Part shown: positions 18,654 to 63,141 of the stretch, one piece after another
How positions within the stretch are numbered: position 1 is the stretch's first letter
Layout of the letters: each line of letters begins with the position of its first letter
NCBI GenBank assembly: GCA_949130485.1
Contig: OX422187.1
Location: 2,100,659-2,164,658, forward strand
Length of the DNA: 64,000 bases
Direction: 5' to 3'
From: Agelas oroides
Lineage: Eukaryota > Porifera > Demospongiae > Agelasida > Agelasidae
Made by a program: the position numbers and the translations under genes
The notes under the pieces: model-generated
Seen by the model: the letters and a program-made list of their open reading frames with translations, nothing else
Database searches by the model: none
Told to the model about the DNA's origin: nothing

Positions 18654-27571
<8,918 letters not shown>

Positions 27572-32900: not shown

Positions 32901-35543
32901 TCTTCAGGCTTTGGACAGTCGAAATTCCGGCATCTTTGCGTGGTTACTCCTGCCTTCAAACGATCTAGTATAGCTACTTTGCTCCGTGCACACCGTGGGC
33001 ATTAAATAGAATGTGCAGAGATCGAGGCCGGATAATCCGAGCAGCCAGATAGTTGAGGTTCGGATAAGTGAGGTTCCACTGTACACCCACCTCTAATTGT
33101 CTGTGTCCATCTTTTATTGCCTCTGCAATCACCCTGGCACCGTCTGACCGCACAAGACAGTCCCCAAAGTTGATCACTCTTAGATCCTGGAGGTCAGGAA
33201 GGACCTCTGCCATGGCCAGGGAGCCCTCCTCTGTGAACGTGTTGTCGTTCAAGTCGATAATCTGCAAGTAGAAATCTTGTGACAGTTCCTGTCTGTCCTA
33301 GTCTCATTCCCAAACCTCATCCAACGCATAAATCACTCCATTATAACACAAGTTATATTGGGGTTGGTCTGGAATCTGGGATTGAGTGGTATTTGTCTGA
33401 TTTCAAAGTTTTTGAGTTGTTGTTTACACTTCAGTAAGCTGCTGAAAATACTTTGTACATAGTACACATTTTCATAGCCTCGGTCCCAGGCCTCCCCCGT
33501 TTTACCTTCCGTTTGCGTTCACAATAATACACGGGAGTGGAAGGCCGGCGAAAAACGGGGAAGGCCTGGGAGCATTCATCACGTGAATGACGTCAGGTGG
33601 ACGCGAGGTGGACGTAGGGGGGGAGGGACCCAACTGCCAAAACAACGCACAGGACCATCCGTTCGAGCACTCTACCGTGTTTTCAGGCTCCAGACCTTAG
33701 CGTGATGGAAACTACCCGTCTTGACCGGTAAGAAACTCACTTTCAAGTTTAGTACGTTTATATTTGAATATCGGCCTCTCCCCCCCTACGTCCACCTCGC
33801 GTCCACTCACGTGATGAATGCTCCCAGGCCTTCCCCGTTTTTCGCCGGCCTTCCACTCCCGTGTATTATTGTGAACGCAAACGGAAGGTAAAACGGGGGA
33901 GGTCTGGGACCGAGGCTAACATTTTCACACAGTATTCCCTATACGTAAACAGTTGAGTCAGTATGATGTATTAAAGTCACAAAAAAGTTTGCCAAACGCA
34001 AACAAGCACATGTAGGGATGAAATCCTCAAAAACCAACCAAACAAGACGGGAACGACACCACAATACTTTTACACCATCCCTACATCTTGTGCCATTTTG
34101 CCAAAACTGTGTGTTTGTATTTGTTTTTTAGTTGTGTGTAGAAGAGGGTTGTCTTGTAGATGGAAGGGTGTGGCGTGGGTGTGTTGTGCATAGTGAGTAT
34201 GTTGTGTTGTTGGTGGTTGCTACTGAGTGTAGCAGGTATGGTCCAAGTTGTGTGTAGAAGGTGTGGAGTGAGTGAGGAGTGGTGAGTGTGTGTGTTATGT
34301 TGGAATGTGCATTATGTTTTTAAGTTTTATGCCTGTTTAGCATGATAGATATGGGTTGTCTTGTATACAGGTGGCTGTGAAGTGAGTAGTGGTAATTTTG
34401 TAATGCTTTGTGAAGGATGGGTTATTTTGTGAGATAGTTGAATGGAGTGAAGTACTATGTTTGTTTGTGGTTGGTGTGGGCTAATAAGTACAAATGTAGA
34501 GGGTTTTGTGTTGTGTACAGGTGGCAAAATGGCACAAGATGTAGGGATGGTGTAAAAGTATTGTGGTGTCGTTCCCGTCTTGTTTGGTTGGTTTTTGAGG
34601 ATTTCATCCCTACATGTGCTTGTTTGCGTTTGGCAAACTTTTTTGTGACTTGTTTCTGTTGTTTTTTTTTTGTTGTTGTGTAACCACACCCCAAGTGAAA
34701 TGACTTGTTATGTAGTTTATTGTTGATGTTGATGGATTTCTGGAGGATGTTAGCTGTTTGCACTTATCCACTTGACAATGGAATCATGGGTGTAACTGTT
34801 GTCTAATTGGGTATGTGCATGTGTGTGTGAGTGGTTGTTCTAAGGCACTGTGGTATATACATGACTGTCTACCTGTTCTGTTGTATGACAGGGTTGTAAC
34901 ACTGTATGTTGTGTGTTGTCCAAGGAACAGTTTCTATAGCTGGTTATACATTGTGGGCAGGTGTGCGTAGGTTGTGTATGGTGGGTGGCAGGTACATAGG
35001 TCATAAAGAGGTAAGGCATAACTGTGGTAAAGGAACCCTTGGAGAGTAAGAGTGTTTTTCCGGGTTCTTCCAGTACTTGTTACGGGACGCTTGCCTTTTG
35101 CTTTCTTTGTTTCGCAGATAGTTCTGCTTATCCCGCGCCCGTTTCTTGTGGACGTTACGCATACTGCGTTCCTTGTCAAATCCAGCACAAGTACGTCAAC
35201 TGCTGTATGAAAGTAGCAATCGTTTGGGAATCAATCGATCGTCAAGTTCTCTACGGAAGTAGAATAACCGCAGCTGCATGCCAACTTCACGTGCTGTAGC
35301 TGTTGAACTTCTGTTGACGTAATCGCTATGAATATTCTATTCTAACAAAATGGCGTATAGCAGCAAGCATAAGCGTGGGGTTACCTGAGAATCGCCGATT
35401 AATTCGACTTCTTTCTTTGAGAACGATGAGTGGTGGGTACAATACCCAGTAATTTATGCTGATCTTTCGCGTTTGAATCGTTGTAATAGCTTCAGCCGTT
35501 GTCGTGCTATCGTGGTGAGCAAAAGAAGAAGAAGAAGAAGAAG

Positions 35544-40800: not shown

Positions 40801-42809
40801 CCTGTTCACCCCAGCATAGCTAGCTGATGATTCCTGGTGTTGGCCGAAATGTGTCCTGCGCAGTGGGTGACTTGGCATATCATCTAGGCTTGTCTGTTTT
40901 AGACGTGGTTCATTGGTTGTTCATGCACATACATAGCAGTGCATTAGCCTTGTTCCCAAGCACCGCCTGGAAGCAAGGCTCATGTCTTCAGAATGCGGTG
41001 AAACCGCAAAGCAAATTCTCTCACAAATGAGGAATAGCGATGGCATACATCATACAAATAATGACTGCACACATGATCTTGTCCTGTCCTCCTCTGAGTA
41101 AACATATATGCCCTATTTCTGCTGAATATCGATAACAGTACTTTTTTTCCCCCTCACTTCAGCGATTGTATATAGTATCTTGTATGAGCGAGTGTTGAAA
41201 GACAGGATCCCTTACCACTGCAAAGAACGCCTGAAGACCTTGACGGAACACGACAAAATCTTCTCCCCTATGTCTGACGATAGGGCCCTGGTTAATCTAC
41301 GGAAACACTACCCCACGGAGTGCATCATCAGTATGGCTCCACAGCTGTGTCGTAATGTCGCCATGGACGTGTATCAGCGGGAGAGAGCCAGTAAGTGGAC
41401 CACTGTTATTGGGGCGAGCCTGAGCGAGCCCCACACTAGCGGGACTGCATTGCGGAAGTGTGTGTGTATGTACCTATGCTTGCGGCCATATACCGTAAAT
41501 TTTAAATGCGCATTTAAATACTTCCCCAAAATTGAATGTCCTCGTGCAGGTAAAGGCCAATGCTGGGCTACTGCCAGAGTGCAGTGTCGGCAACTGTAGT
41601 GGAGACGGCTCAAGTTGAAGCACGCACGGCACCTTACTTCTTGTTTGTCACAGCAGCTACGGACCGACTGGGCATCAACTAGTCTCGCGGGCCAGACTCT
41701 CCCCGTGTGAGAGTCTGGCCTGCGAGACTAGGCATCAACGGCAGGCTGCTCGCAGACTGTACAAAATGACACGCGGGGTTGAGATCGCTTCAGGTAAGGG
41801 TCGTGCATAAACGGCACTCATAAACGCCAGCGATTCAGCTCACGATTTCAGCGTGAAGCTTAGTCTATTCATGTGTAGCCATAGTATACGTAGCTGCTTG
41901 CTCAGGCTCGCCCCCACAATGTTCTACATTTTCTAGTATAGCCTCATTCCCAAGTGTCCCCACTGTCTGGTTTTGGGTTGCTTACAGTGTACAAAAACTG
42001 GATGGTGGGAAAGGCATGGGATATGACTAGACTAGTGTAGTGTGTATCTATTCTTGCGTCATGTTTACCAGTGTATAATACTGGGAATGTGATGAATACA
42101 ACCTTCCAAGAGGCACACCTGCATAGTTTCAAGAACTGTGAATCTACCTGAGCTCATGAATAATGTACAACTCATTATTCAGAATGCTGACACAATGGCA
42201 TACTTTACACGAGAAGATGAAACAGCATGAACTGTCAAATTTCTGTTTCCCTGCCTTTTGCAGTTCCGTTAACAAAATCAGTTTGATAAGGTGCAGCAAA
42301 CTTTTCATGGCTGATTCTCATACGTAGTTGGACCAGTCTCCATTAGACACCAAGCAGTCTCCGTTAGACACCAAGCAGTCTCCGTTAGACACCAACCAGT
42401 CTCCCTTAATCACATTACTGTGTTCAAAGCACTGTATCGGTGATGTTCCGTTAAGGGGGTGGAGCTAATAGCACTTCAGATATTGACACACTGTGCCAGA
42501 GTCCCGCCCCTAGAAGTCCAGTGTTCAGTGCTGCAGTGGTATGAGTGACAGATTGTAATCTGATTTCTACCCAAAACTGCCACCTTTATATTCTGACTTG
42601 ACATTTTGAGTCACAAGTGAAATGGATGTTCTGGTAACTGATGATGTCATGGTGAGGGTATTTCTACTTTCAGGTATTGAGCAGCGTGACCGCCACGTTG
42701 CTGCTAGCATCCAGTTCCAGGTGGGGGACAAGTGCCAAGTGAAGCTTCCTGAAGGACAGACGTACCGTGGAGAGGTCACTCGACTAGACGTTACACCTGG
42801 GTGTCACAT

Positions 42810-43026: not shown

Positions 43027-45558
43027 ATGCAGGCTTGGTTCACAAAGATAACAATTGTACATGTAGAGAGAAAGGGTGAGAGTAAGAAGAGCTAATGTCA
43101 CATTTTGTTTGTTTCACTGCAGGTTTATGTATATGAGTGCCACGAAGAGTAAGTATTACTGTCTAGTTCAGTAGTCACTGTCATATTTAGTAGCAATGTA
43201 GTCGACCTTTGTACAAAATCATCTTTTATCATAATTTGCTTCTCTCTGTGTCCAGGTGGGAGGTCCCTTATAAGGACATTACACTACCACCTTCTGCCAG
43301 CAACGTACCAGCATCAGGTACAGCTGTGTTGATGCTAGCAAACAAAAGTTGAAAGCAAGAGTTGTATGTTTCCTAGTCTTGTCCCCAGACCTCATCCGGC
43401 GCGTATATCGCTTCCAGTATAACGCGCGGGAAAACGCGTGCAATACTGAAAGTGATCTGCGCTGGGGTTGGTTTTGGGTCTGGGACTGAGACTATATGTT
43501 GCCATATAAATTTTCACTGTAATGATATGGGACTTCCCCTCCTCTCACTTAGCACGCCGTAACACATCTTCATATCAGAACAGACCACCAAAGACTCAGT
43601 CCCGTCCTCCGGTACCTGACCGAGCCCCCTCCCAGCACCCCCACAACCCTCATAAGGACACACACACACCTTCTGCTACCCCCAGGGACTCACAATCCAC
43701 ACGCACCCCTTCTGCTACCCCCAGGGACTCACAATCCACACGCCCCCACAATCCCCCTCCATCAACCCCCAAGGACACACAACCCACACGCACCCCTTCT
43801 GCTCCCCCCAGGGACCCACTGCTCCCACGTCCTCCTCCCACTAAATCCAAGGAAACGCGTCTCCATCCTGCATCGTCCAGAGAAGCAAGAAAGACGACTG
43901 GACAGAGGAGGGAGAATACTGAGGGAAATAGCAGCGGTGCCAGCAACTCGAGTCAAAAGTTCCGAGGAGAGAAACAGGCAAAGGAAGTCAAGAAGATCCC
44001 TGTGAAGCCAACCGTCTCGACTCCAACACTTGACAACGCATCGTTTCCCCCTCTTCCCAGCTCAAAGATGGTACCTTCGTCTAATGGCAGTGAGGTTGTG
44101 ATTGGCAAAGAAACTGTTGCACTACAGGTGAGTTAATACAAATTGGACCCTCTTAAATTTTCATCAGCAGTTTCCTCCCTTCTGTAGTGCAACTTCTTTC
44201 TCTTTTGTGACCTCACTTTCTCTTGTTCATTTCAGGCAACCACTGAAGACAAGTCAATCAACCCTGTGCAGAATCGTCTTGGAGGGGGCAGTGTCGACAC
44301 ATCGCTTCACAAGAAGGGAGCCATACGGAAGACCACCACACCTGGAGGCCAAGTTACAGTGACACCTGTACAAGTTCCTTTACCACCGGTAAAAGTTCCG
44401 TCAAGTTCGTCTTTCCCTCCTTCTGCTGTTAACCTCACGAAGACTCCCCCTGGTCCACATGGATCACTGACTTCTGATGACTCGAGTTATTCGAGCAGCA
44501 GTGACGAATCCCCCAACGGAAACCATCCAGTGAATGCGACGTCCACCAATGCCAACCAGAACCATCTTGTGTTTCAATTCCAACCCTTCCCCCTGCCTGA
44601 TCAGCTTGTAACAGGAGCCTGGGAGATCCCTGACAGCAAGCAGCCTGATGCGAAGAGATACACACGGGAAAGAGGAGATCTCCAGAAGCGTGGCAGTTCC
44701 AAAGAACAGAAGACAAAGCTCAAGAACAAGCCACCACATTTTTCTGACGCTGGAGTAGATGAGCAGTTAATAGGTGGCCGAGAGAGCCCTTACCTGGAGC
44801 CTCAGATCCCCCGGGCCAAAGATTCTTCACAGCCAGAAGATGCCTGGCCCATGATCATTGTTGAAAGCACCAGCCCTCCCCTCCACCCTCCTCCTCCACC
44901 TCCTTCCGACACTGCCAATCTCAACATGCCTCTTCCCATGATGATGCATCCCACACTTCCCTCTTGCTCTCATCCTGCCCTCCCTCCTGGCTCTCATGCT
45001 GCACTCATAACAGCACCGATACCTATGGTTCCAAGTCCACTGATTGAAACCCACGTGCAAGCAACTGTCAGCCCCACCATGAGTATGATGCCACCACTGA
45101 TGACAGTGCAACAACCTAACTCGGTCAAGGTTTCATGCAAGGACCACTCCACACAAACATCGACCCCAAAGCTTCAGAAAAAGCATATTCAGGTCCATCC
45201 AGAGGTTCGCAACTGTCCAACGCAGACAGAGTCAATCAAGAGCCGCTCTGTATACAGCCAGACAATACTCCACTCCACTGTTCTTCCTGTGGACGACTTG
45301 AAACCACCACCTCTGCCCAAGGAGAGCGACAGTGAGTACACATTATGCTAGATGAATATTGCTGGGGTGATTTAGGAGCTTGTACTTTCTGTTTAGATGC
45401 TGAATGTGGGCCTCTGATTGGTCACACCATAATTGAGCTAAAGCATACTGTATAATATTTGCTCAATAGTCAACTTGCTGTTTACATGACAATGGCTATC
45501 TCAACAGAGTGGGACGTTAACCAGGGTTGTCGTCATGTCATGTATGTCAAAGTGCAAG

Positions 45559-48392: not shown

Positions 48393-51256
48393 CTATGTAT
48401 TGGGTTTGTTTGTTGCAAATGTGTTTATGATGTGGGGCAGGTGGGCCAGTTTGGACTTAACTTCGCTGGGAAGCTGGTCATTCCTGCCAAACCTGTAGAA
48501 CAAGAATTAATTGTGCATGTGTCAAGTCAGCCAACATTAGCCATGCTATAATCATCTGGAGTTACTGGTGTATCAAACTAGCAGTTTCAACCTAGCCTCG
48601 TTCCCAGTTCTCCACCACAGCTATCGTCACTTGCAGTGCATATAATGCTGAAGGTTGGAGTTTTATCTGAGCACCGTCGTTGCATATAATGCACTGCAAG
48701 CGACAATAGCTGTGGTGGAGGACTGGGAATGAGGCTAGTTTCAACCTCAGGCACTGCTTAGTCTTGGAATCAGACCCTCAAATAAATAAAAAAGGGACCC
48801 TCCCTTCCTCTAAGATGCTAAACTGTATATACCAGGCTATCTGCTGCCTCAGGCTTGTGGCCAGGCCGCATGGCCTGAGTACGAGGCTACCTGCTGCCTC
48901 AGGCTTGTAGCCAGGCCGCATGGCCTGAGTACGAGGCTACCTCTACAGCTGTTACTAAAGTGAAATTGCTACAAATTAGGATAATACAGTAATGTGTTAC
49001 CAGTATAATTTTTGCACTACATGCCTTGATTGCTGGCCCTGTGGACTGATATACATCACAGCTGCACCCCCTGAAGGTTGGAGTTTTATCTGAGCACCGT
49101 CGTTGTATTGCACCCAAACTTCTCCAGAGGAGAGCTGAAGGAAGAAAAAGAGGAGAGGAGGGAGGAAAGCAAACTCGTAAATCTGGCTCCTGAGAGCAAA
49201 TTCATGGTCCACTTGAGTTCTGAGCACTATAGGTAGTTTCATGGCTTAGCTTCACTTTCAGAGGGCAAAAGTCGGTATATCTATGTTCCGTACAGCAAAA
49301 CACAGAAAAAGATTGCCAAGGAAGCATAACATCAAGTCCTTATAATCAGTGTCAAATAAAAAAAGAAATGGCTTCTCTTAAGGCGAAAGGTCTGCTATGC
49401 AGCTATCTCTTAATCATGCACTTACCCTCCAGAAGTAGGTTACATATGTAACTGACATTTGAAAAAGACTTACCTGTGATGCCCATCCTGTGTTCACCAC
49501 ATAAACACTTTTGAGAACTACTGGTTCATCTAGGGGCTGTCTGTCACCACCTGTGGCGGTGGTGTATGCAGAGCGGAGGGAGTGGTCTGATCGACTCCGT
49601 GTGGGTCTGGGGTGCCCTCTCCCATTCCCAGGGAGGAGAGAGGACTCGTGAGGAGAACCCTGGTAGGAGGGAACCTGCAGGCAGACACACATGTGCTGAA
49701 ATCACTCACTTTTTCATTTAGGCATGGGGAGAACCATGGAATGATTCTATAGATGGATATCCACAAGGTAAAACTGCAACCAACATGCCATCATCACTCC
49801 TTTGTCTCTAGCTGTGAGAAAATGTGGAGGTGACCAGGTACCTGTACCTGTATGTTTTCTGAGAGTTGTAGAACTGACGGTGAGGTCTGGCACATGGCCC
49901 CGAGGGAGGGAGGGCTTTGTCCAGTGGCTTTTGTTCCACGTACACTCTGTGGGCTCTTGGGACTGTTCTTGGGTGCACTGAAGGTCGGCCGCCTGTGGGG
50001 GGGGAGGTGCGGATAGAATTACACTATTTATGAAGGTCGGCCACCTGTGGAGGGTGCGGATAAAATTACACTACTTAATATGACATCATTCCCCTTTTAA
50101 TGGGCAGAAAAGAGTGTACCCCCCCACTCTTTTCTGCCAGTGTAATGGGTAAAAAACAGTATCAGGGTACATCAACCACCCTACAAAAATTATACTGGTA
50201 CATCTTAATGATGTCATAAATAGTGCTAAGCCACACCCCATCTAGTATGTTAATTTGTAATGGAAAAGTGGTATACCTTCTGATGGTGACTGGAAAGTAT
50301 GAAGCATCCGAAGATTGTTTTTCAAGGTTGGTGATGGCAGCCTCAATATCCCTGCACTTCTGCAGGCACTGCGGATGATAAGCACTCCAATTAATGCACA
50401 CCAACAGTCAAATGGTGGAGCATGGTGAGCAATCCTACAAGTGCATCTGTACACTCTGCTGCCTCATTAGTTATGTATTGTTAATGTACCTCTTGCATGT
50501 GCTGGTAGCAGGGTGCAATGTTGGTGGGTATTTCTGCCCCCCGTTCCAGAGTGTAGTTGACTCCTCCCTGTTCAATGCACCTTATCCTCACACTCGACTG
50601 GTGGAGCTTGGCCCCTGGAAGGATCGAGGGATCACAGAAGAAGAGATTGAAATCTTGGGTACCGTATGTTAACCTCATACCCAAGCTCTTGGTAGAGTTG
50701 GTTACTCTTTTTTCTTTCCAAAAACTTCCTTTTTTCTCTCTTCTCTTCTGCCCTGTACCACTGTTTATTGGATGTTGCTTAGCAACCAAATCTTTGAACT
50801 TGAATAGCACAAAGGGAATGGGTGGAGGGTGATAATGGATGTGGCAGTGTTGCTAGGAGTAACATCCAACATAGTTACATTCCCCAGACAGAACAGCATG
50901 AGCCCAAAAAGGCAAATACTGTTCCATCGGGGGAATGCAACTAGTTACTTACTTGCAGGCAATACGTATATATTTTAGGGCAAAATAGCAAAGTATTCTC
51001 TGAGCATTTTGGGGTGTGGTTTAGACTTGTATGTACACACAGTACATGTACATGTATGTATGTATGTATGTATGTATGTGTGTATGTATGTATGTGTGTG
51101 TGTATGTATGTATGTATGCATGTATGTATGTATGTGTGTATGTATGTATGTGTGTGTGTATGTATGTATGTTGTATGTATGTGTGTATGTATGTATGTAT
51201 GTATGTATGTATGTATGTGTGTATGTATGTATGTATGTTGTATGTATGTATGTATG

Positions 51257-57847: not shown

Positions 57848-63141
<5,294 letters not shown>

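Follow-up and report, generated by a model that had tools for sequence, protein, structure and literature searches.

PLK4 locus and its palindromic MITE

Within the window (by which we mean the whole 64,000-nucleotide stretch of Agelas oroides DNA that was analysed) a PLK4 gene was placed on the minus strand. Its polo-box-3 (PB3) exon (49025-49134, minus strand) and its last exon, which holds the stop codon (48393-48492, minus strand), were both recognised by their match to solved PLK4 chains. Spliced together, they matched 4yyp, 2n19 and 5lhy over 68 residues (best E 1.5e-14), as compared with about 8e-8 for the open reading frame of the PB3 exon alone against the same chains; an exon further upstream also matched PLK4 (E 1.5e-21). 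Since the spliced exons match better than the single reading frame, the last intron lying between them (48493-49024, minus strand, with the splice junction placed from the protein match) is supported, and judging by its GC donor (AAG/GC...CAG/GT) it appears to use a GC-AG boundary.

This intron houses a palindromic MITE of 145 bp (48593-48737, unstranded) with the ends TAGCCTC...GAGGCTA, whose arms are paired in 45 of 49 outer columns. It is flanked by a 9-bp target-site duplication (GTTTCAACC; left copy 48584-48592, right copy 48738-48746, unstranded) that matches at 9/9 positions between the two sides. A sequence-only reading of the same DNA had proposed a 145-bp MITE with a perfect 9-bp duplication, situated in the last PLK4 intron and carrying a copied piece in sense orientation; the element was borne out by its ends and the agreement of the duplication, as was its setting, with the gene placed on the minus strand. 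The size of the element, its terminal inverted repeats, its dispersed copies and its fixed-length target-site duplication are those of a MITE. Target-site duplications in the MULE superfamily measure 9-11 bp, and the 9-bp duplication is thus of Mutator-like length, in an element that is known here by its ends and target-site duplication.

The same PLK4 intron contains a tandem pair of a 50-bp unit with GAGGCTA-like sequence inside (48830-48929), apparently a duplicated MITE-like piece. Further elements that end in TAGYCTC-like sequence and are bounded by 9-bp target duplications with 0-1 mismatch were noticed at 2341-2790, 33475-33918, 41680-41730, 43374-43494 and 61474-61789, and with these five the window can be called dense in such elements. 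An irregular long array of CAGTATATTGCCAGTATT-type units occupies 21106-22130.

An exon copy at the hairpin apex

The apex of the MITE (48648-48682, minus strand) is a copy, sense relative to PLK4, of 35 nt inside the PB3 exon (49071-49105, minus strand). The two segments are identical over their whole length and have the same orientation, as had been claimed, with a measured gap of 388 bp between them (offset 423), and past one mismatch (TGTAT vs TGCAT) the match to the exon extends to 37/38. The copy is bracketed by a direct repeat, TGCATATAATGC (first copy 48637-48648, second copy 48681-48692, both plus strand), the two copies of which are separated by 32 nt and span the tip of the palindrome; such a bracketing repeat had been noticed before and is indeed present, but its exact length is 12 bp rather than 11 bp. 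At the junctions the donor match enters the 12-bp repeat by 1 nt on one side and by 2 nt on the other, a microhomology that is near chance and singles out no one pathway.

Throughout the 259.3-Mb assembly the 35-mer was found at 2 places (<=3 mismatches allowed; the reversed-pattern control gave 0), and 14-mers of the 35 nt were absent from all of the other loci returned for the MITE (24/24). Given that the 35-mer is confined to these two places, that the other copies are free of its 14-mers and that the exon is conserved PLK4 coding sequence, the PLK4 exon gave and the MITE received. This direction agrees with the sequence-only reading, and the observation that the latter had named as speaking against it (the 35 nt recurring in further family members) was looked for and did not turn up in these 24 copies. 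We attach a negligible probability to the reverse transfer, with the MITE as donor and the exon as recipient: nothing was found in its favour, and it is contradicted by the match of the exon to solved PLK4 polo-box 3 and by the other copies checked, which do not hold the 35 nt. A search at <=3 mismatches for a sibling having exactly the PLK4 form but an empty tip gave 0 places, so the pre-insert state is read from the arms alone.

The MITE family and the variety of its tips

Copies of the family have common ends (TAGCCTCGTTCCCAG) and 9-bp target duplications, the latter being seen, with <=1 mismatch, at no fewer than 16 of the 39 other loci, a lower bound because each locus was represented by its best pair alone and some best pairs came from other elements. 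The inner-arm pattern CTTGCAGT-N5..65-ACTGCAAG matched 728 places per strand, as against 1 in the reversed control. Inner-arm spacers of 38-66 were recorded at 107 places (by parts, 61 for 38-50 and 47 for 51-66) and spacers of 67-92 at 59 places; the spacer patterns overlap slightly, some of the matches are non-MITE, and the kept inner arms are partly built into the pattern. One pattern match, C6:7147805, is a coding exon, which reads like myosin (by our own reading).

The tips were inspected among the matches listed (50 of the 107 with spacers of 38-66, 50 of the 61 with 38-50, 47/47 with 51-66 and 50 of the 59 with 67-92) and proved highly variable: by inspection, some hold remnants of a longer native interior, some hold copies of the element's own arms, and some hold foreign-looking sequence. 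The tips of C6:9000973, C2:8507739 and C17:2574077 (the last by inspection) look self-templated, with their own arms copied. Self-templated-looking apexes (own arm or own terminal repeat) were also seen, by inspection and among the matches listed, at C20:994719, C14:249173 and C15:3852140.

Local captures at other tips

Besides the PLK4 case, three of the 37 tips tested hold a non-repetitive piece with a source ~0.27-1.0 kb off. The palindrome at C13:8780666 is perfect over 29 columns and has a 9-bp target duplication of its own; 16 nt interrupt its centre, of which 15/16 lie within a 17-nt match in the same orientation (source offset ~273 bp), and its sibling C7:1417096 has an uninterrupted tip. 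The tip of C7:1160344 carries 21 nt, inverted, with the source 1.0 kb off; the insert begins with 7 nt (ATTCGTA) identical to the element's own arm and overlapping the 21-nt match, which looks like two successive template switches. At C19:1453799 a diverged 44-nt match was found 1.0 kb off, with an alignment score of 53 (maximum of 38 among 200 shuffles of the letters, and of 31 for the 83 other loci), and this copy looks old.

Three further tips of the 37 have a local match of low complexity and were counted as compatible only. CCCTAA/TTAGGG tips were found at C9:3543919 (L069) and C7:10474314 (L068), with CCCTAA arrays 99-942 bp away, and the third, a G-run tip, has a run of G at 1.0 kb. Telomerase repair as the origin of the telomeric tips (an idea drawn from the excerpted part of PMC2246262) was not retained, local copying being an equally good account with CCCTAA arrays that close. 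Among the matches listed, CCCTAA/TTAGGG repeats were also observed in the tip of C12:8522766.

For eight foreign-looking tips (L002, L005, L070, L072, L073, L075, L078 and L083) no local match of >=12 nt was detected within ~1-2 kb on each side. The tip of L083 (C7:3692888) has ~60 nt reading like an exon end plus GTAAGT on the other strand, and matches five other places in the genome at 80-83%, none of them within ~1 kb.

A layout like that of the PLK4 case, with ~17 nt bracketed by TTCCCTCAGAATTA, recurs at 6 places (C1:6742298, C8:1904729, C8:5206357, C10:5570645, C17:2486269 and C20:2904095), the tip-spanning repeat measuring 14-15 bp in the three copies measured. Three copies of this type were fetched, and their flanks are common and their target duplications similar in sequence, with 1-2 mismatches from one side to the other; consequently, we rejected the idea of a re-transposed, amplified capture, and take it that a larger repeat carries these copies, which go back to one ancestral event.

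Are captures enriched at the tips?

A match of >=15 nt to the own flank was found for 6/35 tips (3 unique, 3 low-complexity), compared with 9/1186 pairs in the cross-locus control, all 9 of which are repetitive by our own reading (telomeric, MITE or G-run). With L083 (no match) and L084 (a match) added, 4 unique matches are counted among 37 tips, the PLK4 case included, in a set where L081 is probably non-MITE and the tips were partly picked for their foreign look. In the window background, 359/3000 random 55-nt segments had an own-flank match of >=15 nt (191 after a low-complexity filter), many of these matches being TIR pairs and tandem arrays; when TIR pairs and arrays were removed by eye, 6 isolated pairs were left in the 64 kb besides the PLK4 pair (~10 if those at 24204, 25733, 25770 and 31888 are included). 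The expected number of matching tips among the 36 others is 0.37 (0.62), versus 3 observed (P 0.006 (0.025)).

A simple claim of enrichment at the tips was weakened by the window background and is kept here in reduced form only: a general excess of local captures at tips over background is plausible but only modestly supported. Because the window background provides a weak contrast and the tips were partly chosen as foreign-looking, each capture must rest on its own junctions. As a tentative generalisation, which we put forward with some reserve, palindromic MITE tips might record germline template switching, several hundred hairpins having apexes that would sample DNA within ~1 kb (a host exon, a CCCTAA array, the own arm).

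Probable template switching at the palindrome tip and its alternatives

The outcome seen at the PLK4 tip combines an exact copy, a donor that is retained and local, small microhomology, an insert at the centre of the palindrome and a 12-bp duplication around that centre. We regard it as likely that a near-perfect palindromic MITE was present in the intron, and that a stall or break at its tip was followed by a short template switch to the PLK4 exon. Such a palindrome would have entered the last PLK4 intron (as attested by the target duplication and the arms), and at a later time its tip may have stalled a replication fork or broken. Synthesis at the tip would then have switched to the exon ~420 bp away, copied ~35 nt, and returned to a point 12 nt before its departure, which would leave the 12-bp direct repeat spanning the tip. 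In yeast, palindromes stall replication and break (according to the part of PMC7999016 drawn on here), and short templated insertions are described at breaks (in the excerpted text of PMC11724301). The cases described above support similar events at a small number of other tips within this transposon group. The sequence-only reading had told a story of tip breakage and repair, of which the capture at the tip, the copying of a local template and the tip-spanning duplication stand, while cruciform cutting is conjectural: a stalled fork with template switching gives the same junctions.

Were the tip instead cut as a cruciform with 12-nt staggered ends, and had fill-in of these ends been accompanied by end-joining of loose PLK4 exon DNA (a displaced flap or debris) at the break, the 12-bp duplication would be expected to lie nearly symmetrically around the tip, as it does, and the capture of DNA fragments by end-joining at breaks has been described (again in the excerpted text of PMC11724301). 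We nevertheless consider this unlikely: the donors traced for other tips lie within ~1 kb (~1-3 kb having been searched on each side), a distance that speaks for copying in cis; C7:1160344 gives the impression of two switches in succession; and C13:8780666 has, by inspection, nothing comparable to the 12-bp duplication. Copying is thus favoured over fragment capture on account of the local donors and the apparent two-step tip. Even less probable is that PLK4 pre-mRNA or mRNA was reverse-copied into the broken tip: although the 35 nt are entirely exonic and in sense orientation, they contain neither a poly(A) tail nor a spliced junction, and other tips appear to have been copied from their own arms or from CCCTAA arrays.

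Palindromes are able to provoke polymerase switching in vitro as well, by which the insert could be an artefact of hairpin assembly or amplification. We hold this to be very improbable, in view of the C1:6742298-type insert, which is found at 6 places and must be inherited, since the three fetched copies have common flanks and target-duplication sequence, and of the diverged copy at C19:1453799, which looks old.

Hairpin RNA and significance

The RNA is predicted to fold into a very stable hairpin (-98.1 kcal/mol, as against a mean of -36.6 for shuffles) whose apex, which contains the PLK4 piece, is weakly paired. The earlier suggestion of a hairpin displaying polo-box sequence is accordingly correct as a predicted structure, but has no evident effect. 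Silencing of PLK4 by the hairpin was considered and rejected: the predicted apex is weakly paired, and the snippet, being in sense orientation, cannot pair with PLK4 mRNA. On these predictions the snippet should not silence PLK4, and we propose no function for it.

The locus offers a miniature view of transposon gene capture, in which ~0.5 kb of DNA holds the donor and the acceptor as well as the junctions, and illustrates that exon-like snippets in introns can originate by such capture without having a function. If MITE tips do in general gather local inserts, they would allow template switching at natural hairpins to be assayed within the genome itself. Among the titles and abstract openings listed from the PMC literature, none dealt with brief captures of neighbouring DNA at the hairpin tips of MITEs.

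Comparison with known systems

The sequence-only reading had likened the locus to the Pack-MULEs of plants, which (in the portion of PMC8277862 cited here) also hold a piece of a host gene within a TIR transposon; this is fair as a functional likeness, but the gap-filling class of animal Pack-TIRs treated in the same portion is closer. Unlike in Pack-MULEs, the PLK4-derived insert is tiny and was seen in one captured copy only. In approximately one-third of Pack-MULEs the capture has been amplified by transposition (PMC8277862, same portion), whereas the 35-mer exists only at its donor and in the PLK4-intron MITE.

Short palindromes as repeated landing sites for copied DNA are also known from the human 180-bp palindrome at Xq27.1, for whose insertions hairpin formation and MMBIR were proposed; the inserts mentioned in the excerpt (PMC6489244) are of a different order, 105 kb and 78 kb, and came from PAR1 and chromosome 8. 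With the Tm1 Mutator/Foldback elements of root-knot nematodes (as characterised in the excerpted part of PMC3169594) the MITE has in common the richness in inverted repeats, the mostly 9-bp target duplications and the existence of MITE-like members, but its terminal sequence differs, and the likeness resides in repeats and target-site duplication.

The closest counterparts are the single-copy, gap-filling Pack-TIRs of animals (Tan et al. 2021, PMC8277862, to the extent excerpted), in which TIR ends and a target-site duplication likewise surround unique, nearby DNA of the same chromosome. Among the 281 animal Pack-TIRs of that survey the parental copy lies within 15 kb in 56.9%, microhomology is present at one or both breakpoints in 67.6% (1-36 bp, median 2 bp), and breakpoints are skewed toward the interior of the TE; the PLK4 case resembles them in its ~2-bp microhomology and interior breakpoints, and has TE ends around a unique piece of host DNA whose parental copy can be identified. 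It departs from them in the size and place of the insert (35 nt in the apex of the hairpin, below the length demanded by the survey, BLAT minScore 100, to which longer inserts were visible), and in that the MITE gained a 12-bp tip duplication instead of losing sequence. The PLK4 case hints at how capture might start, ahead of any amplification, and the best reading of it is as a very small, tip-located version of animal Pack-TIR gap-filling capture as portrayed in those excerpts (PMC8277862).
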